Assembly: GCA_950295325.1 (NCBI GenBank)
Contig: OX485809.1
Location: 10,292,001-10,356,000 of the forward strand
Direction: 5' to 3'
Source: Polytrichum commune
Lineage: Eukaryota > Streptophyta > Polytrichopsida > Polytrichales > Polytrichaceae
DNA length: 64,000 nt
Shown here: in pieces, positions 3,726-63,742 of the stretch
Position numbering within the stretch: the stretch's first letter is position 1
Layout: each line of letters begins with the position of its first letter
Program-made: the position numbers and the translations under genes
The notes under the pieces: model-generated
What the model saw: the letters and a program-made list of their open reading frames with translations, nothing else
What the model was told of the DNA's origin: nothing
The model's database searches: none

Positions 3726-3826
3726 TGGTGCCTTGGCACCATCCACCTTCATAATGTTGCTGTGATGAGCTCCAAACTCAACTACCATAGCCGCTTCCAA
3801 ACTCAATGTAGTCTAGCCCAATGGTC

Positions 3827-4039
3827 GGGGAGATTTCTGGGCATAATCGGTTGAGATCCTAGTGTTTGCAAGTCCAACTGATTACACGTTGACATCCTCC
3901 GGTTTTCCTTTATTAAATTGGGGTATATTCTTCTATAGATTCCTCTAAAATGATCGGTAATTTTCCTGCAGTCTTGAACTTCAACCGGTTATTTCTCAAA
4001 CTCAACTGGTTCATTTGTAACTAACAGTCGGTTCTCCCC
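3827..4039 (-). mobile_element. CCGGTT-rich MITE, copy 1 (inverted)
   Basis: A 213-bp element starting GGGGAGATTT and ending CGGTTCTCCCC, so a 7-bp terminal inverted repeat GGGGAGA can be seen. Read on the minus strand it contains the signature AACCAGTTGAGTTTGAGAAA followed by TAACCGGTTGAAGTT, which recurs near 18.1, 58.0 and 63.6 kb on the plus strand. No coding capacity; probably a MITE of unknown superfamily. Confidence 0.6.
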
Positions 4040-4854
4040 GATCATTGGTCTATCCCGACAATGGATTTTGCAAAGAAATCCAAACAGACACACTATGTCG
4101 TTGACCGCACCGCTCATGTGGAGGCCACACACGTTCGAATACGCCAGTTCCAAAATGGCTCTAGCATGTGTCTAATTGTGAGGAGTTGGGTTTCAAGATT
4201 GATCTCCCTTTTATTGAATTCCCTTTGTCCCTTAGGCCCTCCGGGTGTAATGTGAAGCGTATCGGGAGGGTCTCTGCCTTTTCTACCAATGGCATAAAGC
4301 AACATACAATCCTCATTTACCTATTTTCTTATTAAGACACATGTTTTTGAATGGTACGTGGTTTAGTGTGGGTCTACGAATGGATACCAAGTGGCATGTA
4401 TTTAAAAGAGATTGGATTGCACGCGCAGAGTATGATAAACCATTCTAGACTCGATCGTCAATATTCTTGCGAGGACCTATATGACCATTTAATAAGCATG
4501 AGCATCTTCACTTTGAGACTGAATATCATATGAGCTCCGAAATTTACAAGGAAAGTGGCTATGGCCTCGATTTGGGTTCGCAAACCTTCATGTATTAATC
4601 GGATAATTCATATCCTAATGGAAAAGTGGGGTAGTTGGAAAAAGTAACCATTTACGACCCATCTATCTATTGTACTTTGCATATCAACTAGTATGGGCAT
4701 GTGCCATCCCATCCCTTTGCACTTATGCATAACAACACATCACTTTAACACCCCCCCCCCCCCCCTCTGCGCGGCCACATGTGATCCCCCCCTAAGGCAA
4801 AAATACGGAGAACAAGTTGATGGGGCCAAAGACGGCGGCTTGCAATTTGTGCAA
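4040..4854. other. Intergenic, no gene seen
   Basis: No supported coding frame. A cytosine homopolymer of about 16-17 bases lies at 4749-4766. Confidence 0.4.
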
Positions 4855-5250
4855 TTATTCTCAGAGATGGAATAGAGGATATGATGAGGAATGCAAGTTG
4901 TTTCGTAATTTCATTTCTTGTAAATAATTAGTTACATTTTTCCAAAGAGGCAAGTAAGTAAAACCCCCTACTTGTACAGTAGAGTTCACCGAATCCGAGC
5001 ATCAAAACATCCTACTATGCATACGAATGCACACAAAACGGTTGATTTCAATGGCACCCGAAAGTGATCACAAGTGCCGTGAAACATGACCGGCCAACCC
5101 ATCACTACATCCGACCTGCCACTGCATCATTTTCGGACCACCACTCTTCAAATTAACCATGTTAGGTCCAAACAAGAACCACTCTACTCCTAGCCTAGTC
5201 CAGCGCACCAACAGTGCTCGTTCACCGTGTCTTGGTTTTCTACCTTACCT
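4855..5250 (+). repeat. Dispersed repeat, shared with 18.9-19.3 kb
   Basis: This segment (for example GAGGAATGCAAGTTGTTT, CCAAAGAGGCAAGT and CATCCTACTATGCATACG) aligns over its whole length, in the same orientation and with many substitutions, with 18,895-19,285. It has no open frame and no inverted ends, so it may be an internal fragment of a larger element. Confidence 0.6.
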
Positions 5251-5515
5251 TTCCAAAAAGGTGGAGAGCGGCAGGGCAACTAACAACACCGCTACCACCT
5301 TCTTCACCTTGTTCATTATACGGCTGGGACGAAACAACCCGGACACTGGTTCCTTGGAGGCAAGGGTTTAGGCATCCAACAAGGGAGAAGTGCATGGGTT
5401 TCTTTACCCAAATCTCCATGGTATAGAGTAGATGGGTCACAGCCTCACAGGCCGCAGGCTCAGTATAACTGGGCCCACGGTTCGTTGGCCCGTAGTTGCC
5501 AGGCAATTTGTGACT

Positions 5516-5525
5516 GCCACGTGGC
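5516..5525. promoter_or_regulatory. Palindromic G-box GCCACGTGGC, copy 1
   Basis: A perfect 10-bp palindrome with a CACGTG core, the binding site class of plant bZIP and bHLH factors. It lies about 970 bp upstream of the start codon at 6495 and is preserved at the equivalent site in the duplicate (9147-9156) although flanking bases have changed. Confidence 0.45.
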
Positions 5526-6494
5526 AATGGTGGACCCAGCGGGAGTCCGTCCGCACGAGCTGCAGCAGCTCGTGGGAAACACACACAGCAGTGACTCCAG
5601 CAGTCGTGAAGCACTTCCACGAAAACGTCTCGCAACTAAATTTATCCAATTAGAGTCCGCAATGTTTAGTTGAGAGCTTTCTCAGCTGTGCAATCGACTC
5701 GTCCTTGCGGCTATCTTTGCGAGCTCCATTGTCGGGTACGAGATGGTTGACTTTGGGGTTCATCAAGGTTGCCGCAGCCGCGGTTCTCAATTCCTCATGG
5801 TGGTAATTAGGAGGTGGTGGTGGTGGTGGTGGGCCAAAATGTGATCCCGATCCCCGAACTTACACCGAAGTTGAACAATCCCTTGGAAAAAGGGTGGGAA
5901 TGACAACGCTCATGAAGCGAGCCTCGTTAACTTGTTCGGCAGTTTTTCGTTACCGCCGTTCCCGGAGGTTACGTGTAATGTGGATTTTTTTAGGAATCTC
6001 GGTTGGAGCAACGAAGGAGAGCGAGTATTCGAAAAAGCAGAGATACTATGAAACCCACAATTTCTATTCATCTTCCTTTTGCCGGCAGGCTCCGTGACGT
6101 CGTCGGGAACAAGGATGGCGGCAACGAGATGGGACAGGTGCACGCTAATGCTAAGCACTGCAGATCCCCGACACACGCAGTGCGAAAGCACATAACTACC
6201 CCACCAGAAGCTCAACGAAAACTCATCAATCCAGCCACATAAATCAGACGTGAGCACCTGAGTGCTGTGTTTCCATTCAAAGGAGAGCAGCAGCTGTCCC
6301 AATCAATCAGAACCCGCAATACAGTCTGAGTGCACATTCTGTACATTGTGTGGAATTTGTAGTGATTGTAGTGATTTGAACTCGTGAAGAGTGTGCCTGT
6401 AACGTTTGTGGGCACTATTGTGACTGAAAATTCCCAAGCAATCTTGGAAAAGAAAAAAAGAAGTCTAGCTTGAAGAACTCCAAAGTAGTCGAGA

Positions 6495-6914
6495 ATGTCA
6501 GGAGAAGGAGACGGAGGTGGGTCGCGGTGGAAGGTGAATACAATTTCACCAGGAGAAGGGGACGGAGGTGGATCGCGGTGGAAATTGAATACAATGTCGC
6601 CAGGAGAAGGGGACGGAGGTGGATCGCGGTGGAAATTGAATACAATGTCGCCAGGAGAAGGGGACGGAGGTGGATCGCGGTGGAAATTGAATACAATGTC
6701 GCCAGGAGAAGGGGACGGCGGTGGATCACGGTGGGACATCCTCGTAGCTACAGATGCGGTCTTCTCAAATATCCTCTTAGTATTTCTCCACGATCAGCTG
6801 CGGAAGGTTGCCGACTCATTGCAAGCGATGAAACTGAATGATCAAAAGTTGCCAGGAGGGGAGTTTGGAGATGGAGGTCCTTCGAAGTGGCAGATTGATG
6901 TTGCAGTCCGTTGA
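6495..6914 (+). CDS. Small unknown protein with 17-aa W/G-rich tandem repeats (copy 1)
   Basis: The 139-aa frame begins MSGEGDGGGSRW and carries five copies of GEGDGGGSRW spaced 17 residues apart (unit SPGEGDGGGSRWKLNTM, 51 bp). Units two to four are nearly identical at the DNA level. A unique 59-residue C-terminus follows (DILVATDAVFSNILLVF, HDQLRKVADSLQAMKLNDQK, ending DVAVR). There is no signal peptide or membrane segment. The paralogue at 10073-10390 keeps the same start, stop and C-terminus with three repeats. Across the C-terminus, all eight third-position differences are synonymous against seven non-synonymous substitutions in six codons, so this strand is coding. The opposite strand is also open (Pro/Ser-rich) but has no such support. 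I do not recognise the family. Confidence 0.7.
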   Translation: MSGEGDGGGSRWKVNTISPGEGDGGGSRWKLNTMSPGEGDGGGSRWKLNTMSPGEGDGGGSRWKLNTMSPGEGDGGGSRWDILVATDAVFSNILLVFLHDQLRKVADSLQAMKLNDQKLPGGEFGDGGPSKWQIDVAVR

Positions 6915-8240
6915 AAGATTTCCCACTTACTAGACATCATCATCAGCATCATCATCTCCAGCAGCTACTGTAATTACCGATTCTTCATCTCACATTCATC
7001 AATCAGGGGCTCGATTCTGGCACTGATAAACAATTTTTTTCGTGGGACTGATTAAGAGGTCCCCATTGGCCACCTATCATACGGGTATCAATTAGAGCAC
7101 CCACTACTAGTGTAGACCATCACCTTAGGATGCAGGCGTGCAGGTGTTCAGGTGCACAGCTTGTGAAATATGTCGCCTCACGTTCTCTTCTAGGTGATCA
7201 CCCACTTTTTTTTTGCGGAGGTTACTTAATTTCAAATGCCATGTGTAAAGAGAATCTGTAGAAAAGGATTTGACAGCGTTGAACTCAAATCCATGTACAA
7301 AATTTTTTACCGCAATGAAATAGACAGAAATACCACCACAATTATAGAATTCATATTGGTTCATCCTGCGTGCATTCCATGATCTGCAAATTCACACTCA
7401 GAGTCATGTGTGTGTGTGTTTTGTGAATGTCTCATATGGACTTGATGGTGGAATTAGGTCATGCTCTTAGCATTGAGTCATAGAATGATACATCTGTTGT
7501 GCAAGTCAGATATAGACATGCAAATATTTCTGAAGGAGAATTGGTCCTGGATTGGTATGTACATAATGCGAGCAGCAAGGCAAATTACGGATGTGGAGGA
7601 TGGAGGTCCTTTCGTATTTGCAATTTAGAAACGAATTGCTCCCTCATGCGTGCGGCTTCCTACCTTTTGGGATATCAGACATATTTTTGCTGTGGATACA
7701 AGACTTAGAAGGAAAAATCGAGTTAAGTTTCGTTGTAAAGTAATTACTTTCGCAAGTCCCAACTTCTCAAAATGTCAAAAGACCTATGCCACTGCCTGGA
7801 TCAGCTTTTATCAAGAGCACCAACCATCAAGTGACAGAATATCAACTGAAGGTCTGTTGCATGACTACCGAAATGCTTTTTACAAATGTTCGATGTCGAT
7901 ATTCGACGCATTGGAATACCGCGGGAATACTTCGAATTTCAAAATGAGCAGTTGAAGTCTGTAAGTTCTATAATATCACACTTTGAGGTGCGGACTAAGT
8001 TATTAATTGGAAGTATCATTAGTGTTGGTCCACACAAATGAAAAAACTTAAATATCTTGGTGATGCATGTTACACTTGTTGGATAGTGTGCCGTACTCTG
8101 GACGTTCCTTTCATTTGCAGGAATACTTAAATCTTTGGTGATGTATGATAATCCTATATCTTGAGGGTGAATGTTCGTCACTCTGTCTGTAATATGAGTG
8201 TGCGGGATGTAAGATTTTGAAGGTGCAGACATGATCTGGC

Positions 8241-9119
8241 TTGAGGGTGTTTGTTGGGGTGCAGCAATGGATGTGGAAATACTTCAATCGACTCATATCC
8301 AGATTGAACTCCCAAAATCCGAATATTATATTTTGAGGGCCCATGTCACTTGATAATAATATGTACTTGTGGTGTCTGGATATTACATGACGTTTGGTGT
8401 TAAACGACAAGCTACAAAGACAACTCTAATCAACATGACACACTTGGAATGGAGGATGCTAATTTCAACCCTTTCCTAAAAGTGTCCCTTATGCATGCCT
8501 CCTACTCCCCTAACCGAAGCACACCTTACACCATACAAATGTCTTTGGCATAAAGCGGGGCATATTTGGATGGAAAAGTAGGACAGTTTCAAGAGAATAT
8601 GGGGTTGATTTTGGGTGAAAGTGGATTTGGATAAGTGTGATTTGGGGTGGATACCTCATATATATGTTTTAAGAATTCTATCCCACATGCAAAAGCTATA
8701 AGGACTCATTTTGTTTTGTTGTGGGTGCAGTGCCGGTTTTAGTGTGGGGGCAATGTGTGCAAGAGTTGGCGATGATTTGGAGTAAAGCAGGATTGGTTTT
8801 GGACAAAAAAAATGTGTAGTTTTAGGTGAGTGCGGAGAGGATGTGTGGAACCATTTGTAATAGAAAAAGTGGAAGTGTAGGGAGGGATTTTAAAATCTAG
8901 GGGTACGTGACTTCAATAGGAGTACGTGACTTTTTGTAAGATACCTATTCATATGATGTGCATTTTGTTTCTACCATACCTATTGCCAATTTTCTAATCC
9001 AACGTGCATACCACCAATCCAAAATGACATTAGAAAATAGGTTAAATCAGCGGAAGGGTTGCTTTACCACCCTCTACATTATAACCCGAAACCAGTGTGG
9101 GTTAACCCGGCCCTTTGTG
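8241..9119. other. Spacer between the duplicated blocks
   Basis: Purine-rich in part (GGTGAGTGCGGAGAGGATG and similar). No gene, RNA or element boundary seen. Confidence 0.4.
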
Positions 9120-9146
9120 TCGAGGTTGCCAGGCAATTGGGTGATA

Positions 9147-9156
9147 GCCACGTGGC
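9147..9156. promoter_or_regulatory. Palindromic G-box GCCACGTGGC, copy 2
   Basis: Identical 10-bp palindrome at the position equivalent to 5516-5525, about 920 bp upstream of the start codon at 10073. Retention of all ten bases amid a diverged flank suggests constraint. Confidence 0.45.
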
Positions 9157-9799
9157 GAGGGTGGTCCCGGAGTCGAGCTGCGCAGACAGCACAAGCTGGT
9201 GGGATTCGGGAAGCTCACACAACGGCGAGTCCGGCCGTCAGAGCTCCACGAAGACGCCTCGCAACAGCAAAGTGCACTAAATTTGTCCATTGCGGCTCCG
9301 ACATGCTCGTTGATCACACCACACCTGCATAGAAGTGACCGCAGTTCGTTCGTCCACCTATTTCTGCTCAATCCGTTGTCGGGACAGACTGCATTGAGTT
9401 TTGCGATCGTCTCCGTAGCTAGCTGGTTGACGTAATTGGAGATCCGAGGTTCCTGGCGCAGGAACAGTTCTCAAGTGTTGGGTGGTAACCTAGTTGTGGG
9501 CCAAAATCCCTTGAAACACGATGGGAATGGGAAATGCTGATACTGCGTCTGATCAAGCGAACCTAAATTGGACGGCAGTTTTTCGTTGTCGCGTCTGTAC
9601 TCCGCCGCTTTCTGAGGTTTCCCACGTCGCCTGGATTTGTGAATGCAACGAAGGAGGCCGAGAGTTCCAAAAAGCAGAGACATTACACTTGCTATCCAGC
9701 TTCCTCGTGACATCAGGAATAAGAACGGCGGCAACGAGTTTACAGTAATTACACGCTAATTCTAAAAGTTGCGAATCCCCGACACACGTAATATGAGAG

Positions 9800-9807
9800 T
9801 ATATAAG
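9800..9807 (+). promoter_or_regulatory. TATA box candidate for copy 2 of the repeat gene
   Basis: TATATAAG lies about 270 bp upstream of the ATG at 10073. Downstream is a leader conserved between copies (ACTCATCAATCCAGC). The equivalent site in copy 1 (about 6189-6196) reads CACATAAC, so the copies probably differ in core promoter strength. Confidence 0.5.
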
Positions 9808-10072
9808 CTCCCAAGAAGCTAAACGAGAACTCATCAATCCAGCAACTGAGAGCAGACGTGAGCATTGAGCAAGTAAAAGCATTTGAGTGTTATTTTCAAT
9901 TCAAACTGGCAGCACGCTCTTCTTCCACATTCAGTCCACATTGTGTGGAACTTGTGGTGATTGTAAAGCTTGTAATTTGTGAACTTATGTGCCTATAGAA
10001 TTTGTGGGCGATATCGTGACTGAAATTCCCCAATAATAAAATCTACCTCCAGGAACTCCAAAGTAGTCGAGA

Positions 10073-10390
10073 ATGTCAGGAGAAGGAGACGGGGGTGGGT
10101 CAAAGTGGAAACTTAACGCAATGTCACCAGGTGAAGGGGACGGCGGTGGATCGCGGTGGAAATTAAATACAATGTCGCCAGGAGAAGGGGACGGAGGTGG
10201 ATCACGGTGGGACATCCTCGTAGCTGTAGATGTGGTCTTCTCCAACATCCTCTTGGTTTTTCGCCACGATCAGCTGCGGAAGGTTGCCGATTCTTTGCAA
10301 GCGATGAAACTGAATGATCAAAAGTTGCCTGGAGGGGAGTTTGGAGACGGAGGTCCTTGGAAGTCGCAGATTGATGTTGCAGTCTGTTGA
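10073..10390 (+). CDS. Small unknown protein with 17-aa W/G-rich tandem repeats (copy 2)
   Basis: A 105-aa paralogue of the protein at 6495-6914. It starts MSGEGDGGGSKW and has three GEGDGGGS(K/R)W units before the conserved C-terminus (DILVAVDVVFSNILLVF, HDQLRKVADSLQAMKLNDQK, ending DVAVC). The first unit is diverged (SKWKLNAM), matching its position as the oldest unit in copy 1. Substitutions between the two genes are mostly synonymous in the C-terminus. One serine/tryptophan pair is exchanged reciprocally (PSKWQ against PWKSQ). It has a clear TATA box, unlike copy 1. No recognised domain, signal peptide or membrane segment. Confidence 0.7.
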   Translation: MSGEGDGGGSKWKLNAMSPGEGDGGGSRWKLNTMSPGEGDGGGSRWDILVAVDVVFSNILLVFRHDQLRKVADSLQAMKLNDQKLPGGEFGDGGPWKSQIDVAVC

Positions 10391-11290
10391 AGAATTTCCC
10401 ACTTACTAGACGTTATCATCAGCATCAGCATCTCCAGCAGCTACTGTAATTACTGATTCTTCATCTCACATTCATCAATCAGGGGCTCGATTCCGGCACT
10501 GATAAAGAATTTTTTTCCTGGGAATGATTGGCCAGCTGTCATACGGGTATCAATTAAAGTACCCACTACTAGTGTAGACCATCACTTTAGGATGCAAGCG
10601 TGCAGGTTGTCAAATATTTCAGCTCGCGTGGTTTAGTACGTGCCCCAATTTCTTCTTTGTTGGAAGTTACTTGAATTTTGCAAATGCCCTGTACAAATAT
10701 CAGTTTGACAGCATTGAATTCAAAGCCATGTGCAGAAAAGCTGGCAGCATTGGAATACAAAATCACCACCATTACAGATACAGCTCATATTGGTTCATCT
10801 TGCATTCCATACTCTGCATGATATTCACTCAGATCATGTGTGCGTATTTGACTGTCTCATGTACTGCAAGCCCAAGCTTTCAACTTGGAGTTATAAAATG
10901 GTGTTTCTGTTGTGTAATTTAGAATGTGAAATGCATGGATTTGTTAGGGGGGTTGGTATGTACATTTTGAGAGTGGCAAGACGTTTTATGCGAATACTTC
11001 TAATTTCAAATAGACAGTTTTGTGCAAAAAATATTGTGTAAGTTGTATCTTATCAAGGTTTGAGGTGTGGACTAAATTAGATATGCATCCTTAGTTTCTG
11101 GGTCCACCTGAATGAACGACACACTTATGGTGATGATTGTTTCGCTTACTTTGGAGGAATACACAAATCTCTGGTCATGGTGTATGATATGAATCTCCCA
11201 TAACTCGAGTAAGTACTTGTCGTGACTGTCTGTAAGCCTCGACATGAATCTGCGGGATGTAATAATTTTGAGGTGCAGACATCCGGCTAT

Positions 11291-12600
11291 GTTGGATCCG
11301 TAATTGTTTGGGACGAGATTTGTGGGAAGGCTACCGTAGTGTGGTTGAATCTCTGGAGGTTGCTTCAGTGACACCTGTTGGTGTCCTTCAAGACCCTGAA
11401 ATCACCCGGAACGCCCTAGAAATGCCAAGGTGAATAAGTTGGTCTGTAATTTAGCTAGCGGACCTGAAATCGTGGTGGTAAAAGAAAAAGATCATATCAG
11501 GAAATTATTGTAACAGCCTGGGTTCCATTTCGGCAGGTTAGCACTATCGCTACAGTAGTTGTGTGGATTTAACTACTCTGAACAATATCTGATGTAGTGT
11601 ATCCCCCACAATATTCATTATCGACACACAGATTGTCTGGTTGCAATCACTCGATGGCAACTAGGGATGGAAACATGACATTTGGTGCTACGTACCTGAT
11701 CGCAATACCTTGAGAAATCAGATTTCAATAAATCTCCCGAATATAATAAATGACATGGCAACTGAGGTTAGGGCCTAGGAAATTCCCTCCATCTCCATAT
11801 CTGTAATGCACAAGCTATTAGAATTAGCTATGACAGTACTCACTCAAATATGGATAGATATGCAAGTTATTCACAGACTTTGTTGTTGAAGCCGGCATCA
11901 AACTTTGTCATTACTTTGTTATTACTTTCACTACATGAATAGTCCATCACTCAGTATAAATAACCACATGGATGGTGGCACAAAATGCGGCAGACATTAA
12001 GTCCCCCCATACGAACTATGGGGGGTGTCAGATCCGGGCGGGGGCAGCCTCCTCGGAAATTTCTGAACCCGACCGAAAACTGTTGCCCGCCCCGCCCAAC
12101 TTCGAAAAAAATATTGCTCTTGCATTCTTGAAGGCCGCTTGACTACAAATCCCATATTGAGTGCACTTCACCTTCAAGGTCTAAAATCCAATATATATGT
12201 GCACTTCCCACTAGTAAATAACAATTCATTGGGATATCATTCCGGAAGTGAAACTATCAATGAAGCATGTAATTAACTTGGAGGTCAAATAAAATTACAA
12301 AATCCTCATTAACATTGAGGTTATAATTTTTATGACTTACCATTTGAAATTGTCTTTGTCATTCTAAAGTGAAACCTAAATTTAGTGTGTTGATTTAGTA
12401 TGTATATTTTATAATATTTTAGTAATGCCGTCTACTTTCACAAGTATTCATACACATTCAAACCAATTAAGTGTGATTTAATGTAATTAAGTCTAATTAA
12501 TTATAATATATTAGAATTAAAAAAGGACAAATATATTGTTATATTACACAACAAAGATAAACAATAGGCAATTGGAAACTGCTGCATTGCTAGAACTATT
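11291..12600. other. Intergenic, no gene seen
   Basis: No supported gene. A GC-rich patch at about 12,020-12,105 (GGGCGGGGGCAGCC and CCCGCCCCGCCC) stands out from AT-rich surroundings and may be the edge of the element that carried the Myb-like pseudogene to its right. Confidence 0.4.
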
Positions 12601-13334
12601 TTTTTAAGCCTTGAAGAACATTGGCAAAAAGATTTGCCATCCTCTCTTGTGATGTCCGTGTTTATTTGAACATCTTGAACTCTAACTTCCTATTGTCCTC
12701 ATGTAATTTGATAACGGCTTCCAACTTCAATTCCTCGATTCTACGAGTGGACTCGTAAAAACGATCCAAGGAAGTCGCCATGTCACTGGCCAACTTCCTC
12801 CTCTTCACTGGTTGGCTCTAACTCAGGGCAAATTGGAGGCTCTGGTTCTTGGGGACTCTGAAACCTCTTGTGTTACCTCTTCTTGTTGACTTGGAGGTTG
12901 GTCCTCCACGCCCACATTATGACTATTGTACATACACCAGGCACCCCATTAGCATTAGCCGTACCTAAAAAAACCTTGTCAATCATATTGAACCAAATCC
13001 ACTGTGAACCCGCATTGTCACATGTGACATTATGCAATTTCTTCTCCTTGTGGCAATGCCACTTGAGCTTGTCCCACTTGTCCCGAACTTGAGTCCAAGT
13101 TCGTCGTGCCTCGCTTGGATGATCTTTGACAACCTGCTCCCGAATCCTCTCCCAATATTGTTGCTTGAAGACTATTGTGCCATAACTCTCAATGCGCTCT
13201 TTTACCAACTCTACTAGGTATTTGGTAGCTCCATGGGTCCACTCCCTTGCTAGAAGAGGTGGTGACCCTAAACCCACAATTAATGTGACCATCACTTGAA
13301 GGTCATGGAGTGCCCAAAATTGGAGGTAATGCAA
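12601..13334 (-). pseudogene. Decayed Myb/SANT-like (trihelix) transposon-associated protein
   Basis: The minus-strand frame 13334-12873 contains a tryptophan-spaced three-helix DNA-binding module: REWTHGATKYLVELVKERI, then YWERIREQVVKDHP, then WTQVRDKWDKLKWHCHKEKK. This is the arrangement of plant Myb/SANT-like proteins often carried by PIF/Harbinger or related transposons. The frame stops after NKKR. Further along the same strand a different frame holds the expected helical C-terminus (RFYESTRRIEELKLEAVIKL, then an in-frame stop, then QERMANLFANVLQGL). At least one frameshift and one stop make it a pseudogene unless the gap is an intron. GC-rich sequence at 13,590-13,720 flanks it. Confidence 0.65.
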
Positions 13335-18043: not shown

Positions 18044-18260
18044 GGGAGAACCGGTGGTGAGTTATAGATGAACCGGTTGAGATTGAGAAATAACTGGTTG
18101 AAGTTGGAGACTTCAGGAGAATTACCGATCGTTTTAGAGGAATCTATGCAAGAATATACCTCCAATGAATGAAAGCAAGACCGGAAGATGTCCACATGTA
18201 ACCGGCTGGATTTAGAATCACATGGATCTTGACCGACTATATATGCATAAAAATTTCCCC
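18044..18260 (+). mobile_element. CCGGTT-rich MITE, copy 2
   Basis: Starts GGGAGAACCGG and ends AAATTTCCCC. Contains GATGAACCGGTTGAGATTGA and TAACTGGTTGAAGTT as in the other three copies. About 217 bp, non-coding. Confidence 0.6.
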
Positions 18261-18894
18261 GGCACTGTTTCAAGTCGAAGACAAAGTTGGGCACATATTT
18301 AATGTTCATCTTATACCGTAGCTCTCTAGCAGCTCGGGCACCTTTTCGCCTAATAATGAATTAAAGTGTGAAAGTAAGTTAGGCAGCCCAAAGAACAATA
18401 TTCTAAAATCGGTAGATTACAAAAGTAATCTAAAATAAGGTAGACATTCATCCAAGTCGTTTATGTAATTCATGGATGTTTTTCCTAATTTCATCTATGG
18501 CAACTACGATTAACCTAAACACTTCCCTTAACCAAACCAACATTCCTTACCCTAAAGTTGTCTCTTACTTGTACGTCACTTGTTGAAGTTATTTAATGCT
18601 ACTTTGTTGGATTCTAGTGAATGTCACCTTGTTTCATTATGATTTTAGACACTCTTTATATGTTATTTCTTATTTTATAAGACACTCAACAAAATTAATT
18701 TCCCAAAAATTTAGACACCTTCAAAATTGATTATTTTCTGCCCAAGCTGCTAGAGAGTTACGGTACCATATTAAAGGCAATATCAAATTCCGTGCCGTGA
18801 CTGTTTTGAATGCATTTTGGGATGATCTCGGCCTCACTTACCTCCAAGGCCTTGGCAGGAATCACGAAGTTGTGGCCCAATGCCATGGCCAATT
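18261..18894. other. Intergenic, no gene seen
   Basis: AT-rich; no gene or defined element. A short phrase near 18,306-18,330 (CTCTCTAGCAGCTCGGGC) recurs inverted near 18,737-18,760 (CCAAGCTGCTAGAGAG), hinting at the outer ends of another decayed element. Confidence 0.35.
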
Positions 18895-22256: not shown

Positions 22257-23190
22257 CTATGAGACGTTGCAATACTCATGAAATTGAAAATGCAATAAAT
22301 ATGTGATTGTGGCAAACATACCTTGAGCAACTACATCATGCATGACCCTCATGTCTATTGCCTTGCCAACATACCTTGCATGTCCAACAACTCCAACACC
22401 ATAGCATGCATTGCTTCCATTAGCCAAGTTGACTCTAAGATCCTCCTCCAACCACCTCTCTTGGAGATCCATCATGGCAAAGTAACTTTTATCACCCTCC
22501 AACCCAACAACATAGTCATCATGGAGAGTGATTAATTTCTCTCTCCTCCACTTGATGGTCAAGAGCGATTCATTGTGCGTTAAAATACCTCATATTTGCC
22601 ACCCCGTAAGTGTATCAAAAATACATTGGAGATGTCTTCCATTTGAATATCACAAGGATTCATTATGATCATCCAAATTGGAACAACTCTCCTCACATCC
22701 ATGCTTGCGGACCACAATGGAATCGCCCATGTGGGGTATGGATAGAATGATCCATTTTTGCACAAGACTAATACCCAAATGCTTCTTGATACAAAATTGT
22801 GCCCATGCATAATGTTGTTATGAGATAGATTCACACGATTTTGCAAACCAACCTTTCCAAACTTGGCACACTCTGTTTTACCCTCATTCATATCATTGGA
22901 CGAAACATTGTGATGCACAAACTCAAAATACTCTTCCCCGTTGTCCTTCATATAATACTCATCCATGGCCAAGAGGGTGTGTGATCCCTCATCCCTCAAA
23001 CTACTTGCAAAACACAACATGACTCATTGGAGGATGTTCATCCCATCTCAAACAAGCCTTCATTTTCTTGTTCAACAATGGCAGACTGTTGAAATTCTCT
23101 TCCACTATCTTTTGAAAATATTTATGGGTCAATGCCCCACCCCTCTCCACATAGCACAATCCAACTATAAAAATGCTCCTCAATGAACTT
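22257..23190 (-). pseudogene. Decayed protein-coding gene of unknown family
   Basis: Three consecutive minus-strand frames join into one protein-like reading only if frameshifts are allowed. They are: 23183-23001 (ending DEHPPMSHVVFCK), 23020-22580 (MDEYYMKDNGEEYFEFVHHN, CKNGSFYPYPTWAIPLWS, CDIQMEDISNVFLIHLRGG), and 22562-22257 (LTHNESLLTIKWRREKLIT, VNLANGSNACYGVGVVGHAR). The breaks fall near 23,010 and 22,585. Composition is that of an ordinary globular protein, not low complexity. I do not recognise the family and cannot exclude a transposon origin. Broken in this copy. Confidence 0.5.
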
Positions 23191-28330: not shown

Positions 28331-28334
28331 CTAG

Positions 28335-29035
28335 GGACTCACATGTGCACATGTCATGTGAGTCTTCTTATGATGGTTCCATTCCACCACAATGGGCATG
28401 ACCATGGAGTATGCATGTGTGGGGACGCACATGTGCACATGTCATGTGGGTCTTCTTATGATGGAACCATTCCATCACGGTGGGCATGGCCATGGATGCA
28501 TGCATGTATGGGGACGCATGTGTGCATAAGCCACATGGATGTTCTTGTGATGGATCCATTCTATCACGATGGGTATGGCCATGGAGGCATGCATGTATGG
28601 GGACGCATGTGTGCATAAGCCACGTGGGTCTTCTTGTGATGGGTACATTCCATCACGATGGGCATGGCCATGGATGCATGAATGTATGGGGACGCATGTG
28701 TGCATAAGCCACATGGATGTTCTTGTGATGGATCCATTCTATCACGATGGGTATGGCCATGGAGGCATGCATGTATGGGGACGCATGTGTGCATAAGCCA
28801 CGTGGGTCTTCTTGTGATGGGTACATTCCATCACGATGGGCATGGCCATGGAGGCATGCATGTATGGGGACGCACATGTGCACAAGTCACGTGGTTCTTC
28901 TTGTGATGGATCCATTCCATCACGATGGGCATGCATGTATGGGGACGCACATGTGCATAAGCCATGTGGGTCTTCTGGTGATTGGCCCATTCCATGACGA
29001 TGGGCATGGCCATGGAGGCATGTATGTGTGTATGT
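28335..29035. repeat. 89-bp minisatellite array, about eight units
   Basis: The word GGGGACGCA recurs at 28421, 28510, 28599, 28688, 28777, 28866 and 28941; spacing is 89 bp except the last (75 bp, loss of a 14-bp piece). Units at 28510 and 28688 are identical and differ from those at 28599 and 28777, showing a 178-bp dimeric higher-order repeat. All frames are open in places because 89 is not a multiple of 3, so the open frames here are not genes. The array ends about 520 bp before the E2 start codon. Confidence 0.9.
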
Positions 29036-39222: not shown

Positions 39223-40222
39223 ATGGCAAGCGCAAATGATGAGGATGAGGATGTATGGCAAGATGGGTCGATGCGCCTGTCACGGGCTAATTCGGCCACA
39301 AATGGAAGCTCCGGATATTTGACGGCAACTGATGGAAGTGCGTCGGATTCGAGCAGCCATAAGGTGGGAAGAAGAGGAGGAGGAGGAGGAGGAGGAGAGG
39401 TATCGACCCCCTCCACGACCGCGAATTCGAGACTCACGAAACCAGGAGAAGCATCGACGCCCGCCACGACGGCGAATTCGACACTCACGAAACCAGGAGA
39501 AGTATCGACGCCCTCCACGACGGCGAATTCGACGCTCACGAAACCAGGAGAAGTATCGACGCCCTCCACGACGGCGAATTCGACGCTCACGAAACCAGGA
39601 GAAGTATCGACCCCCTCTCCGTCAGCATCGAGGCGCACGAAATCAGGAGAAGTATTAACCCCTTCCACTTCCGCTGCTTCGAGGCGCACGAAATCAGGAG
39701 AAGCGGTGACCCCTTCCACTTCCGCTACTTGGAGACACACGAAGTCGGGAGTAGTACAAGTCCCCTCCACGTCAGGTTCAAGGCGCACGAAACCAGGAGA
39801 AGTGTCGACCCCATCCACGGTCGCCGCTGCGAGGCGCACGAAATCGGCAGACGTTTCGACGCCCTCCACGTTGGCTTCGAGACGCACGAAATCGGACACC
39901 CAGCGAGTGATTCCGACCTCACTGTATGCTTCGAAGCGCATCCAAAGGCTCGCGAAGCAGAGGAGTGAGTTCGTTGGCAGCGAGCTCGAGTTCGAGATCG
40001 AAGCCTCGAAAGACCACTGGAGTGAGCTGAGCCCCGAATTGCTTAATGGCGCGGTTGCAGAACAAGACTTGAAGAAGGCTCAACAACAACAACAACAAAA
40101 CCGAAGCGGCGCCGTAGACAACGGTCGAGTCGACGGGAAGAATGCCAAGCCTCGCTCATGTGGCCGAGTGGTGAAGGAGTTTTGTGGACATCTGCGTATT
40201 GTGAGCCGGAAGAAAAATGACG
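39223..40222 (+). CDS. Ser/Thr-Pro/Lys-rich tandem-repeat exon, possible N-terminus of the downstream kinase
   Basis: A long plus-strand frame starts MASANDEDEDVWQDGSMRLS. From about residue 57 to 225 it carries ten units of 16-17 residues, typified by KPGEVSTPSTTANSTLT (51 bp), decaying to KSGEVLTPSTSAASRRT. It then becomes more ordinary (KRIQRLAKQRSEFVGSELEF, HWSELSPELLNGA, a run of seven Gln, CGRVVKEFCGHLRIVSRKKN). The repeats are basic, rich in STPST-type phosphoacceptor sites and probably disordered. The frame stays open to 40386, but the tail after about 40,222 is AT-rich and intron-like. A phase-1 donor at 40,222/40,223 would fit the kinase acceptor at 43,152, giving 653 aa. The donor (GTCGGC) is weak, so the fusion is tentative. 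The minus strand is also open and Val/Asp-rich. Confidence 0.45.
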
Positions 40223-42325
40223 GTCGGCAACTCTCCCTTCTCAATTTCTATGCTTCTAATGAACTCATGATGAATTGCTATATTCTTGTTTCATGGAGAG
40301 AAACTACCATTGTCATTTTTTTTTATGAACAATTTTTGAATTTTGATTATGTTCTTAACTCGTATAGGTGTAAAACGTCCCCCTAATGTCCCAAACGGTA
40401 TTTTTGTTTTCAAAACGATCGGATCTTGCTCCAAAATAGGTGTTCTTTCAACAAATTTTGTTTTTTTCCTTCTTCTATAGGTACAAATTTGAATTATCTC
40501 TTCACTTCCAAATGCTTGATCGTTATTCTTTACTTGTATTTCATAGAATGCTTGCGACTCAATATATGGGCACTTTGAAACCCTGGTTGTATGGTTCTGC
40601 TGATCTAGAAAAATATCATGTTGGTTGAAATAGTGTTGGGATAAGTTGTAGGCTCATTTTAGCTAATCCTTTGGGATACTTTGATCGCTTTGGGATTTTG
40701 TCATGCTTGCAACTTTCCACAAATACATAGTATCATTACTTCTAATCAATCTTATCAATTTTATCATAGAAAGAATCGGTTTGATGAGATTCTTGATGAC
40801 TTTTCAAAGTTTTCAATCCTAAGACTTTTAGACATTATAGGAGGATCAATTTTTATTTTTATTTAGTTTTAATTGTATGAATGTGATCCTTTAATGTTGT
40901 AATAACATTTAAAACCTCTTAGAGAAATAATTCTATAAAAAAAAACTCTTAGAAAATTATTTACCTCTCAACATATAGGTGCTACAAATAATTGCCACCC
41001 CAAGGGTCGTCATGTCTCTAGAAATAAAGTAGGGTTTAGGTTTTTAGGGTTTAGGCGCCCATCCTAATGTGGAGAGTGACGTACAATGATCCCTAATGCA
41101 TAGGTACATCCAGTTGTGACATGTTTGTACTTGGAAGGAACAACATTGTAGATTATCTATGAGTTTCACTCGAACAAGAATTCATAAGATATAATTTACT
41201 TCGACTCCAAAAAAGACAAGTTCAACTCTTATATTTTTCCTCAAAATTCTGCTAATATGGTCATGTAGTTGTATCATTATTCTATAATCAAACCTTTGCA
41301 TATGTTTATGTTCTCAAACTGTTCACAATAGGTGCACTCACTTTTAGCCTCATAGAGGGTCCCACATGTGAGATAAGGATTTTTTTTAAAGTGGGGCACT
41401 AGAAGCGGAGGAAAAAAACAACCTCGTGTAGGGCATTGCTTTAGTAAATCATGTGAGGCATGGAGAGAAAGCCCCACTTGTAGGTGATGTTGAAATGGCA
41501 TGAGGATAGTTGCTTGTAGCAAGAATGGGGTATATGACTATGAAGTAGGTGGGCACTACAATACTTAGTTGGTTCTTGAGAAATGGAAGGCAGTTGTAGG
41601 CACCCATATTAGAGAGCAACCTTCTTCAAGAGGAATTTTCCTTTGCACTTGTGCAATCTCAAATTTGCATTTGAACCACATGGTTGGGGGTCACTTTATT
41701 TTTGTCCTCCAAAAGATCGTTAATGGGGTTTGGGGTTAAAAATTGAGTTTTTGGGTGGATTTGGATTCCTCTTGATGTGCAAATTTGTCTGCCACATACA
41801 ATTGATTCGACCATATTGATTTAATGGTTGGATATATGCTCAATTGCCCAAAGCGCTAGAAATAGGTGTTGCTTTTACTACCAATATGAATCAAGTTGGT
41901 CCTAGTCATAGATCAACATCAAATTGGGCACTCTTTGAGAGTATGCGTAAGCATCCCCAACAAACTATGGGTTTAAAAATGTGTTTCTTTTGGATTTGGG
42001 TCCCTCATGTATTTAATCTTTCACATGCAAATTGATCCTAAGCGATTCTAGCGTGCAAACATGAATAGCATGAATTAAGAAAAGAAATGGTTGGGGTCAT
42101 GATCATAGCACTCTTTAAACAAACCCACATTGTTTTGTGATCCCGCAGAATAAGAAACCGAACATTGTGTTTGACTAAAACCTTTGATATGCCTAGATTT
42201 TGAAATTTAGACTTAATTTTAGAAAAATGTAGGTCACGACCATAATTATATATATATATATAGGTGGTGTTGAAAAATGTTATGACAAGATTCACTAACA
42301 CAAATAGTGGTTCTTTGGGAATTTA
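40223..42325. other. Possible intron or intergenic DNA
   Basis: AT-rich. A good-looking 3' splice site (TTTTTTTCCTTCTTCTATAG, ending at about 40,481) precedes a short open frame, but no onward exon is evident. No other gene supported. Confidence 0.35.
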
Positions 42326-43152: not shown

Positions 43153-44114
43153 GGGACCCAACAAGCAACCGGGCGGTGTTCGAAACTCTCCGAAAGAACC
43201 CGCAGTGGGCGAAATTCTTGGAGCCATTCGGCAGCGATGGCACTGTTTCCGCTTCCGCACGCAAGATGGCGGAGGGAGCGCAGGCGGAGATTTACGATTC
43301 CTCCAGATTTACGGTCCACAAGGTCTTCAAGTCGCCCCATTCGCTTCGCGATTTGCACGAGCAATGGCCGCACGGCATGCTCCTCAAAGGGAAGCAGATA
43401 TACTCCATGGCACACGCACTCGGGCTCGAGATCCCAGTATCGATCTCGGAGATGATGCCTTCAATGTCCTCGGGTACCTACTTCCACGAATTGAACACTG
43501 CGGGGAGTTTTGGTGGGGTTTTGTTGGAAGACGGGAGGTTTGCACTTGTGATGAAAAAATACGACGGTGACCTACGCACTCTCATCGACGCCCGTATGCT
43601 ACAAAACGGCAACCAAGGACCCCCATTCGGCTATGAGACGGCGAAGTGGATGATGCGCCAAATTGCGGTTGGGATGAACGGCTTGCATAGGGACCGCATT
43701 GTGCACCGCGACTTGAAGGCGTCGAATGTGCTATATGAGGTGTCGGGGGTTGGGGGAATTGACCTTGTGGTCGCCGACTTCGAATGCTCCGCTAGGGTTT
43801 TGGGCACCGGGTTTTGGAGAGCGCCGGAGATTTTGAAGGCGCTCCCGGATGTCCCGGCGCACGCATTCAGCGAGAAGTCGGATGTATATAGTTATGCTAT
43901 GACTTGCTATGAAATTTTGACTGGATGCTTGCCTTTTGAGAATCAGCTGACGTCTGAGGTGGGGGTGGTGGTTCGTGAAGGGCAGAGGCCGGAGTTGCCG
44001 GCCTATGTCGAGCCATCGGTGAGAGATTTGATAGCAAGTTGCTGGCAAGAGAATCCTGCGAAACGGCCCTCGTTTGGAGTTATTTTGAAGACATGGCGGG
44101 AGATTTGTGTGTAA
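43153..44114 (+). CDS. Atypical protein kinase, catalytic exon
   Basis: The frame DPTSNRAVFETLRKNPQW to the TAA at 44112-44114 is open for 319 codons. It follows an AG acceptor at 43,151-43,152, and a stop at 43,146 rules out plain upstream extension; the first in-frame ATG lies within the fold (KMAEGAQAEIY). Visible kinase motifs: FTVHKVFK (VAIK lysine), IVHRDLKASNVL (catalytic loop, Asp and Asn present), VVADFECSA (DFG replaced by DFE), GFWRAPEIL (APE), KSDVYSYAM, and ENPAKRPSF (subdomain XI Arg). The glycine loop is poor (AEGAQAEIY), and only about twelve residues separate DFE from APE. It resembles plant Raf/TKL-type kinases at the C-lobe. Metal binding may be weakened, so activity is uncertain. 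The N-terminus must lie in an upstream exon, possibly 39223-40222. Confidence 0.8.
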
Positions 44115-57562: not shown

Positions 57563-57928
57563 GGACATCATTTAGGTGATGAATTTTATGCATTTAAACT
57601 CGCTTGAAATGCTTGCCTATGCACAAGGTTCACAAAACTTTTAATTCACCATCCAATTGGATTTCATAGCTCAAGGTTGAAAATGGTTATTCCACAATTT
57701 GGTAGGTTCAGTTTGAATACTCAGCCAAGCCAAGATTTGCATGAACGGGATGCACTTTGCTGGCAAATTCCCAAGTGTAGTTGTAGCAAACCAAGCTCAA
57801 ACATTCAAAAGTCCCTGACAACGTGATGATTCTTGAACATAAAACAGAGGACTTCCATGTAATTCATGGAACCATTTTAAGATGCCTTTCCCAACAACAA
57901 TAACGAGTGCCCTAATATGTCAATGAAC
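57563..57928. other. 3' flank of the WD40 gene
   Basis: Presumed 3' UTR and intergenic DNA; no gene or element recognised. Confidence 0.35.
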
Positions 57929-58133
57929 AAGGACAATTGACTGCTAGTTACGGATGAACTGGTTGGGTTTAAGAATTAACTGGTTGAAGTTCAAGACTTT
58001 AGAAAAATCACTGATCATTTGAGGAATCTATGGAATATTCAAACTAATAGAGAAAAACTGGAACACCACAACACATAACCAGTTGGACTTGGAAACACTA
58101 GATTTACAACCGACTATGCCCAAACATTTCTCT
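57929..58133 (+). mobile_element. CCGGTT-rich MITE, copy 3 (degraded)
   Basis: GATGAACTGGTTGGGTTTAA, TAACTGGTTGAAGTTCAAGA and AACCAGTTGGACTTGGAAAC match the family seen at 3.8, 18.0 and 63.5 kb. The CCGGTT cores have mutated to CTGGTT, consistent with methylation-driven CpG decay. Confidence 0.6.
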
Positions 58134-60839: not shown

Positions 60840-62116
60840 TCACCACCAATTGGTAGAGTCGGCAGAGAGACTTTGGAGAGAGAGAGAGAGAGTGCGTCCA
60901 AACAGAGGGCTTTCGGGAGCAGGGGAAGGTTCGCAATAGATTAAAAACAAATAACTTGAAGCGTCAACCTGAATTGCGTGGCTGAGTTCCGTACCTGGCA
61001 ATTCAAAGTCGTTGCGGTTCGAAGGAGGTGCCGCTATTGGAGGAGTCGGGAGCCTCGGCCCGCGCTGGACCGTCAAAGCGGGGTGGAGCGTTGGAGCAGT
61101 CTGTGCCGCAGGTAGAGGAGCGGCCGACGGAGTACTTCGGGGAGCAGTTGCAGCAGTCCGGGGTTGTTTCCTCCGCTGGTCCTCTGCCTCTCGCTCCTGC
61201 ATGAGCTTGTCATGCTCAGCCTTTTCACGGTCCGCCACCCGCTTCTCCGCTTCGATCCGCTGCTTTATCCTCTCCAGTTCCTCAGTGCGTCGAAGCTGAA
61301 AGTACTCTCTAGCGCCCTGGTCTAGCTCCTCCATATTCATCTTGAACAAGGTCATCGCGGAGTGATCTTGCATGGCCTCCACCTTCCACATGTTGGCGGC
61401 GGCCATTTGCTCGGTAGCCCTTGCCTGAGTTTTGAGGATAGAGTCTCGGCACCCAGCCTCGAGAAGGTCCTGCTTTGCAGCCTTCTGCCCCCTTGGCCTG
61501 ACCAGCTCTCGGGCTGCACTCTCGACACTACCGAAACCCTCCCCCTCGGCGCTGGCACCCTCCCCGTCGACGTGCTCCTGAACATCCCCCTCGTGTGTAG
61601 GCTGCGTGGGCATTGTGGCTCTCCGAGCTGCCATGGCCAAACCTCCCAGACTCCCAGACTCCCTTCTCCACCGTGAGTCCTCTTCTGCACGTCCAGAGGA
61701 GATTCCCACCACCTGGGCACCTCTCTTAACAAAGTCCAACAATGCAGGAAGGTAAATCCTTGCTGCTTGGGGTGTCTATCTCTATAATATTCTAACGCAC
61801 GCTCTAGCACATCCTCCATTGAGGTGCCTGACTCTCTACAATCGGAAACCTGCTTGTACGCACCACAAAACTTGGCGACGTCATGCTTGATGCTCCCCCA
61901 CTTGGTCTCTAGAGATCTTGCAGGTCGCAACGGACTCCCCCTTGCCTTCACGCGATTGAAGTGAGTGGTGATGCGCTCCCAAAATGCAATGTTGCGTTGG
62001 CCATTTCCACAAATTGGGTCCTGCGACACAGCCAAAAAACTCCTACACAAGCATGTCTCCTCCTCTACTGAAAAGTTCTTCCCTTTCCTCCCCCTTCCTG
62101 CCTCCAAGCCTGCCAT
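60840..62116 (-). pseudogene. Harbinger Myb/SANT-like accessory protein, frameshifted
   Basis: Starting at the ATG complementary to 62114-62116, MAGLEAGRGRKGKNFSVEEE opens a Myb/SANT-like DNA-binding domain (FWERITTHFNRVK, SLETKWGSIKHDVAKFCG, then GFTFLHCWTLLREVPRW). The C-terminal half lies in another frame (61742 down to about 60,840): RPRGQKAAKQDLLEAG, MTLFKMNMEELDQGAREYFQ, then a charged coiled coil (RIEAEKRVADREKAEHDKL) and a Pro/Ala-rich tail. This is the layout of plant proteins annotated as NAM-associated C-terminal/GST-T3-like, which help transposase enter the nucleus and bind element ends. The frames are separated by an 8-bp tandem duplication at 61,643-61,663; without it they would be continuous. 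Confidence 0.75.
61643..61663. repeat. 8-bp tandem duplication that breaks the Myb-like frame
   Basis: CTCCCAGA is present twice followed by a partial CTCCC. Removing one 8-bp copy restores reading from SLGG into LAMAARRATMPTQ, so the duplication is the probable inactivating event. Confidence 0.7.
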
Positions 62117-62312
62117 GGTGGCGTTGACTGAGTTTAGAGGGAGGAAAACTTCTCCCTGCAAAGGTGCAACTTTTGGAGAGACCGGGAGCTCAATGGCGTC
62201 CCTCGGCAGTTTGGAGCGACGGGTGCGGAGTCCGTTGGGAGGCCCTTTTTGCTGCGGGCCCACCATGCACCGTTGGCGGGAGCCGTTGGCGAGCCCACTG
62301 CAAGTGCCCTTA

Positions 62313-63529: not shown

Positions 63530-63742
63530 TAACATGAAGCTAGTTACAGATGAGCTGGTTGAGTTTGAGAAATGACCGGTTGAAGTTCAATAGTGTAGGA
63601 ATAGTACCCACCATTTTAGAGGAATCTAAGGAATATACTTCAAATTAATAAAGAAAAACTGAACGATGTCATCATGTGACTGGTTGGCTGGACTTGAAAA
63701 CACTAGGATTTTGACCGGTTAATGCCCAACAATCTTCATGGA
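63530..63742 (+). mobile_element. CCGGTT-rich MITE, copy 4
   Basis: GATGAGCTGGTTGAGTTTGA, TGACCGGTTGAAGTTCAA, TTTTAGAGGAATCTAAGGAA and TTTTGACCGGTTAATGCCCA place it in the same family as 3,827-4,039. Confidence 0.6.

Follow-up and report, generated by a model that had tools for sequence, protein, structure and literature searches.

Small orphan-like genes are common. Among known systems, the pair of open reading frames (ORFs) described here resembles the orphan (lineage-specific) genes of land plants as a class, in being short, repeat-bearing, tandemly duplicated, and, within the collections searched, without a family match. Glycine-rich, hydrophilin-like stress proteins of the LEA type are a second relative in kind. 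Hydrophilins are defined by a Gly content above 6% and strong hydrophilicity over the whole protein. The proteins encoded by the ORF pair are likewise rich in Gly (21.6% in ORF1 and 19.0% in ORF2), have negative GRAVY values (-0.64 and -0.41, respectively), and are preceded by a G-box. They differ from LEA-type proteins in the Trp of their repeat unit, in their only moderate hydrophilicity, and in a hydrophobic segment, a 19-residue stretch at KD 1.7. No LEA domain was found, as no Pfam family matched either protein or the C-terminus at E ≤ 10. A third likeness is to multi-domain CLE or CEP multi-copy peptide precursors, in which near-identical short motifs and spacers also lie in one ORF. Unlike these precursors, the ORF pair has a hydrophilic N-terminus (KD of the first 20 residues, -0.8 in both proteins) and no Pfam match; judged by hydropathy, a classical N-terminal signal peptide is unlikely. 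In our best reading, the ORFs are a small orphan-like gene pair of an ordinary kind, unusual only in the strong conservation of a 3′ stretch.

The two ORFs lie in a 64-kb window, which is the whole stretch of DNA analyzed (Table 1). A previous sequence-only reading had described two tandem ORFs with GEGDGGGSRW repeats and with start, stop, and frame intact in both copies. Both ORFs are indeed present and encode the protein it gave, and their start, stop, and frame are kept. The underlying arrays of 51-bp units are real, with 4.6 copies at 95% match in one and 2.6 copies at 81% match in the other, and the difference in length between the ORFs is two whole 51-bp units. Random placement of the 29 substitutions leaves the ORF intact 15% of the time, so an open frame alone is weak evidence. 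From the sequence comparisons below, we believe that the pair probably represents real small protein-coding genes, arranged in tandem and each with its coding part in one ORF. The evidence for this goes beyond the previous reading in three ways, namely a frame test, ATG-poor leaders, and a sixth repeat unit recognizable at the protein level, and it is weaker in one way, since the C-terminus alone is marginal.

Table 1 Features of the duplicated locus, with positions in the 64-kb window
Feature	Position	Strand	Description
ORF1	6495-6914	+	139 aa; GEGDGGGSRW unit five times, then a hydrophobic/helical insert and a sixth unit that has diverged
ORF2	10073-10390	+	105 aa; three units, insert and tail as in ORF1
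Conserved C-terminal 59 codons	6735-6911 (ORF1); partner 10211-10387 (ORF2)	+	
Conserved stretch after stop, copy 1	6915-7144	+	Probably noncoding; probable 3′ UTR
Conserved stretch after stop, copy 2	10391-10606	+	Probably noncoding
Leader, copy 1	6149-6494	+	Free of ATGs from the one at 6148 up to the start codon at 6495
Leader, copy 2	9831-10072	+	One ATG, at 9987
G-box palindrome GCCACGTGGC, copy 1	5516-5525	+	979 bp before ATG
G-box palindrome GCCACGTGGC, copy 2	9147-9156	+	926 bp before ATG
TATA-box-like TATATAAG, copy 2	9800-9807	+	Consensus match only
Duplicated segment, copy 1	5478-8232	+	~2.8 kb; outside the core, islands that align to copy 2 at 65-77% identity
Duplicated segment, copy 2	9108-11282	+	~2.2 kb; tandem partner of copy 1
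Differences per aligned site	6008-6224		55/187
Differences per aligned site	6225-6474		67/216
Differences per aligned site	C-terminus and stop		15/180
Differences per aligned site	6915-7050		10/136
Differences per aligned site	7051-7144		6/80
Differences per aligned site	7145-7400		79/223
Differences per aligned site	7401-7600		61/171

The tandem duplication, which the previous reading had missed, is much larger than the ORFs and appears in BLAST and MAFFT as separate alignable islands. Its core (6475-7144 versus 10053-10606) is 92% identical, with 44 differences at 553 aligned sites, and the edges of this core are sharp, the flanks being only about 64-71% identical. Two regions in which the alignment looks largely forced, 5480-6007 (213/498 differences) and 7601-8000 (212/395), were excluded as yardsticks. 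By its sequence, the duplication is old. The sharp edges would also fit a pseudogene pair, or a neutral tandem duplicate whose core was recently evened by gene conversion, in which case the low divergence would say nothing on selection. Consistent with conversion, synonymous divergence in the C-terminus lies below that of the 3′ flank (8/41 versus 79/223, p = 0.048). However, conversion predicts equal divergence at synonymous sites and downstream of the stop, and the downstream stretch is less diverged, with 16/216 versus 18/75 for synonymous sites of the aligned ORF (p = 0.0003) and 8/41 for those of the C-terminus (p = 0.034). Conversion also creates no synonymous excess in one frame. The observed pattern is the one expected if the protein and the 3′ stretch are each under their own constraint, and it would not arise from simple conversion of the core; we consider a pseudogene or converted pair quite unlikely.

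Selection on the proposed protein was examined in the C-terminal 59 codons and in the aligned ORF. The difference count given for the C-terminus by the previous reading is exact: the 15 differences comprise eight at third positions, all synonymous, and seven that change residues in six codons. Through two of the nonsynonymous differences, Ser and Trp trade places, with PSKWQ in copy 1 against PWKSQ in its twin; the tail motif of copy 2 has Ser in place of the repeat Trp, which counts against the gene reading. The NG86 estimate of dN/dS is 0.24 for the C-terminus; for the aligned ORF it is 0.14-0.18, the range covering five choices of copy-1 units to pair. Pairwise maximum likelihood with a Goldman-Yang type codon model and a likelihood ratio test gives an omega of 0.33 on the C-terminus, below 1 (p = 0.045), with a 95% interval that takes in grid values from 0.15 to 0.8. 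Omega is 0.29 on the 69-codon tail (p = 0.021), and 0.22 (p = 0.0001) and 0.15 (p < 0.0001) on the aligned ORF under two pairings. The purifying selection that had been claimed is supported, strongly on the aligned ORF and weakly on the C-terminus alone. We note that the strong signal depends on including the repeat units, which cannot be paired one to one with certainty, and that the repeat part may inflate significance, as units can be evened out among themselves.

The frame dependence of the signal was assessed by a placement test, which moves substitutions at random while keeping their types. In the proposed frame (+0), 18 of the 29 differences in the aligned ORF are synonymous against 8.2 expected, a value reached in 0 of 5000 shuffles, and P is 0.024 for the C-terminus and 0.021 for the 69-codon tail. 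In the remaining five frames, P ranges over 0.31-0.92 for the C-terminus and 0.024-0.96 for the aligned ORF, and strong synonymous excess is found in the proposed frame only. As a negative control, the 136 bases after the stop show no excess in any frame (P = 0.50-0.96), and when the tail is pooled with these bases the synonymous excess is not significant (P = 0.11). The lowest of the P values outside frame +0, 0.024 over the aligned ORF, belongs to antisense frame -1. This touches on the idea that the coding strand is the opposite one, with PPPSPSPGDIVFNFHRD repeats, where 6212-6739 and 9985-10248 are open frames of 175 aa (copy 1) and 87 aa (copy 2). However, antisense frame -1 has two stops in the C-terminal block of both copies and a P of 0.31 there, and the antisense ORFs differ by half in length and, by eye, lose their likeness outside the repeats. 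Variants among the six full repeat units are divided into 12 synonymous and 5 not in frame +0, versus 10 and 7 in the best antisense frame. A better conservation signal on the opposite strand had been named beforehand as grounds for refuting the gene; the signal there is weaker than in frame +0, and coding on the minus strand seems to us very improbable.

Comparison with the 3′ flank (79/223) points in the same direction for the plus-strand ORF. Nonsynonymous sites differ at 11/240 (p = 5e-18) and synonymous sites of the aligned ORF at 18/75 (p = 0.087), with site counts rounded in both comparisons. These alignments indicate that synonymous sites have diverged nearly like the flanks and that amino-acid sites have not. 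Gap events are also rare in the ORF: 7.2 would be expected at the flank rate, and one was seen, of two whole units (P(≤1) = 0.006).

Conservation continues past the stop codon for about 230 bp, over which 16 of 216 aligned sites differ (7.4% divergence), not significantly different from the nonsynonymous sites (p = 0.24, rounded counts). This conservation, missed by the previous reading, is roughly equal to that of the protein, so selection on the protein does not account for all of it. Selection could instead act on a noncoding transcript or a regulatory element spanning about 670 bp (6475-7144), with the ORF a by-product of the 51-bp minisatellite; 51 is a multiple of three, and several frames stay open. 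We regard this explanation as unlikely, as it leaves the ATG-poor leaders unexplained and as third positions take most of the differences in the aligned ORF (5, 6, and 18 by codon position) but not of those in the 136 bases downstream of the stop (2, 5, and 3). In addition, a structured RNA downstream of the stop was rejected, since z values of 1.9 and 0.6 give the stretch no better folding than shuffled sequence, and across the 64-kb window no Rfam match attains its gathering score. A weak full-length Rfam match to U3 at 8066-8223 (18.3 bits versus 34, E = 0.36) overlaps a duplicated island. It was taken as chance, because the partner stretch in copy 2 has no U3 match up to E = 10, its only two matches being weak ones with E of 1.4 and 7.7. 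Between 6915 and 7050, no frame is open in both copies. In 7051-7144 and its partner, one plus-strand frame per copy is free of stops, and at about 26-30 codons it is too short to mean much.

The leaders, which are poor in ATGs, also speak for a protein-coding pair. The gap between 6148 and 6495 is the third-largest of 1571 ATG-to-ATG distances on the plus strand. No ATG occurs in 6228-6494 against a shuffle mean of 6.2, and 0 of 3000 shuffles reach zero; the leader of copy 2 has 1 ATG in 242 bases against 5.9 in shuffles (P = 0.005). An ATG is missing from 0.8% of the 267-base stretches of the window, and of the seven ATG-free stretches of at least 250 nt on the plus strand, only one precedes these ORFs. 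We note that this test was post hoc, with the alignment seen first, the leader starts chosen by hand, and the leaders related, and that its P values therefore lack independence. On the plus strand, the longest stretch free of ATGs (594 nt from 39332) lies in a 387-aa ORF at 39223-40386 (+), which contains another array of ~51 bp (units like TKPGEVSTPSTTANSTL) and matches no Pfam family above threshold. A spliced leader was also considered and set aside. Conservation rises sharply at 6475/10053 and copy 2 has a possible acceptor there, but of donors with at least 6 of 9 consensus matches copy 2 has two and copy 1 none. As the supposed intron of copy 1 would lie within its ATG-free leader, the simpler assumption is that the leader is not spliced.

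Farther upstream, GCCACGTGGC is found only twice in the 64-kb window, once per copy, and in none of 100 shuffles. As the copies share ancestry, the pair represents one retained site and not two. Its ten bases lie within a G-box probe that one paper describes as a consensus site for Arabidopsis bZIPs (PMC5662769), and they appear as an unnamed element in the promoter table of another (PMC5796140). There is no TATA box in copy 1 at the place aligned with that of copy 2. A bacterial promoter scan of the DNA has no bearing on a plant promoter.

The C-terminus had been presented as a 59-residue conserved unit; it is rather an insert of ~30 residues followed by an old, diverged sixth repeat unit. 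The tail GDGGPSKWQIDVA aligns to the repeat unit GDGGGSRWDILVA with a protein score reached by 1 of 5000 shuffles, whereas the match as DNA was reached by 357 of 3000; both stretches were picked by eye before shuffling. A match at the protein level and not at the DNA level is expected if the peptide is what is kept. The insert begins with a hydrophobic part (19-residue KD means of 1.74 and 1.69 in the two copies) and continues as an amphipathic stretch. AlphaFold, run with a two-row alignment, draws one helix over residues 79-114, where the block mean pLDDT is only 33-54. The mean pLDDT of the model is 40.1, with 124 of 139 residues under 50, which is too poor for a fold search.

Homologue searches returned no relative that we believe. 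The ORFs are unlikely to be parts of a longer gene that encodes a known domain, as six-frame translations of 4001-13002 (with X at stops) gave no Pfam match at E ≤ 0.01. The hydrogenase 4 membrane subunit in NCBIfam (E = 0.034 and 0.16) scored at most 14 bits against a cut-off of 136 and is not believed; the same holds for the weak matches to FliK and CWC26 in the PDB (E = 0.3-1.6) and for a designed beta protein (E = 0.28). A pattern search with the 69-aa tail of ORF1 matched 115 stretches in prokaryote-genome contigs and 5 in viral contigs, none of them confirmed. In a self-BLAST of the window, the core pairs only with itself and its twin among the best 60 matches. With composition correction and the low-complexity filter off, tblastn of the repeat part on the window gave E values of 0.005-0.02 at 62185-62310 and in the array at 39.4-39.9 kb, which we take as composition, and nothing credible elsewhere among the matches listed. 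Four peptide strings from the protein are absent from open-access paper text, and among the orphan-gene papers listed, titles and abstract openings showed nothing relevant. The family therefore matches nothing credible in Pfam, NCBIfam, the PDB, Rfam, prokaryote genomes, viral contigs, or open-access text, and this statement extends to these collections only; it may well have predicted, unnamed members in plant databases.

ORFs elsewhere in the window include domains typical of plants and of plant transposons, which suggest a plant-like genome. The NAM-associated (30.4 bits versus a cut-off of 27.7) and Myb/SANT-like (32 versus 27) ORFs at 60843-62266 and 12876-13334, both on the minus strand, are of the sort found in plant transposons, and two frames overlap at 60.8-62.3 kb. 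Fragments of the Replitron HUH and C-terminal domains lie in the right order at 22583-23020 (-), below their Pfam cut-offs (21.2 and 20.7 bits versus 28.5 and 27). They may be a relic, and they may point to a seed-free plant. A single-ORF protein kinase of the Tyr/Ser-Thr type is located at 43176-44111 (+; Pfam E = 1.4e-27). The window also contains an array of 89-bp units at 28334-29030, with higher orders of 178 and 267 bp and 88% matches for the 89-bp period. Four dispersed copies of a ~200-bp repeat are 73-79% identical (3826-4038, 18044-18261, 57921-58130, and 63541-63735) and may represent a short transposable element.

We propose that the gene pair would be transcribed from the plus strand, that translation would start at the first or nearly the first AUG, and that the 3′ UTR would carry regulatory sites. 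With low confidence, the protein may be a largely disordered array of short Gly/Asp-rich, Trp-bearing GEGDGGGSRW motifs, five in ORF1 and three in ORF2, joined to a hydrophobic-then-amphipathic helix. It might work as a multivalent adaptor or membrane-edge protein whose avidity varies with repeat number, and its expression might perhaps be under G-box (bZIP or bHLH) control. The adaptor or membrane-edge role is a guess from the hydropathy and amphipathicity of the insert and from the low-confidence AlphaFold helix. It is conceivable, though we lean against it, that the ORFs belong to a plant-lineage-specific family that combines Trp-bearing GEGDGGGSRW motifs with a membrane-active helix. In such a family, the differing repeat numbers of duplicates would serve for tuning, and the constraint on the 3′ UTR would be as tight as that on the protein.

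If real, the pair would represent a small gene family that is easily overlooked and that could be traced through the seed-free plants. The traits to follow would be the single ORF, the tandem pair, the repeat number changed between duplicates, and the unusually constrained 3′ stretch. The pair would open no new kind of system; it would be one further example for the question of how orphan genes come to be functional.
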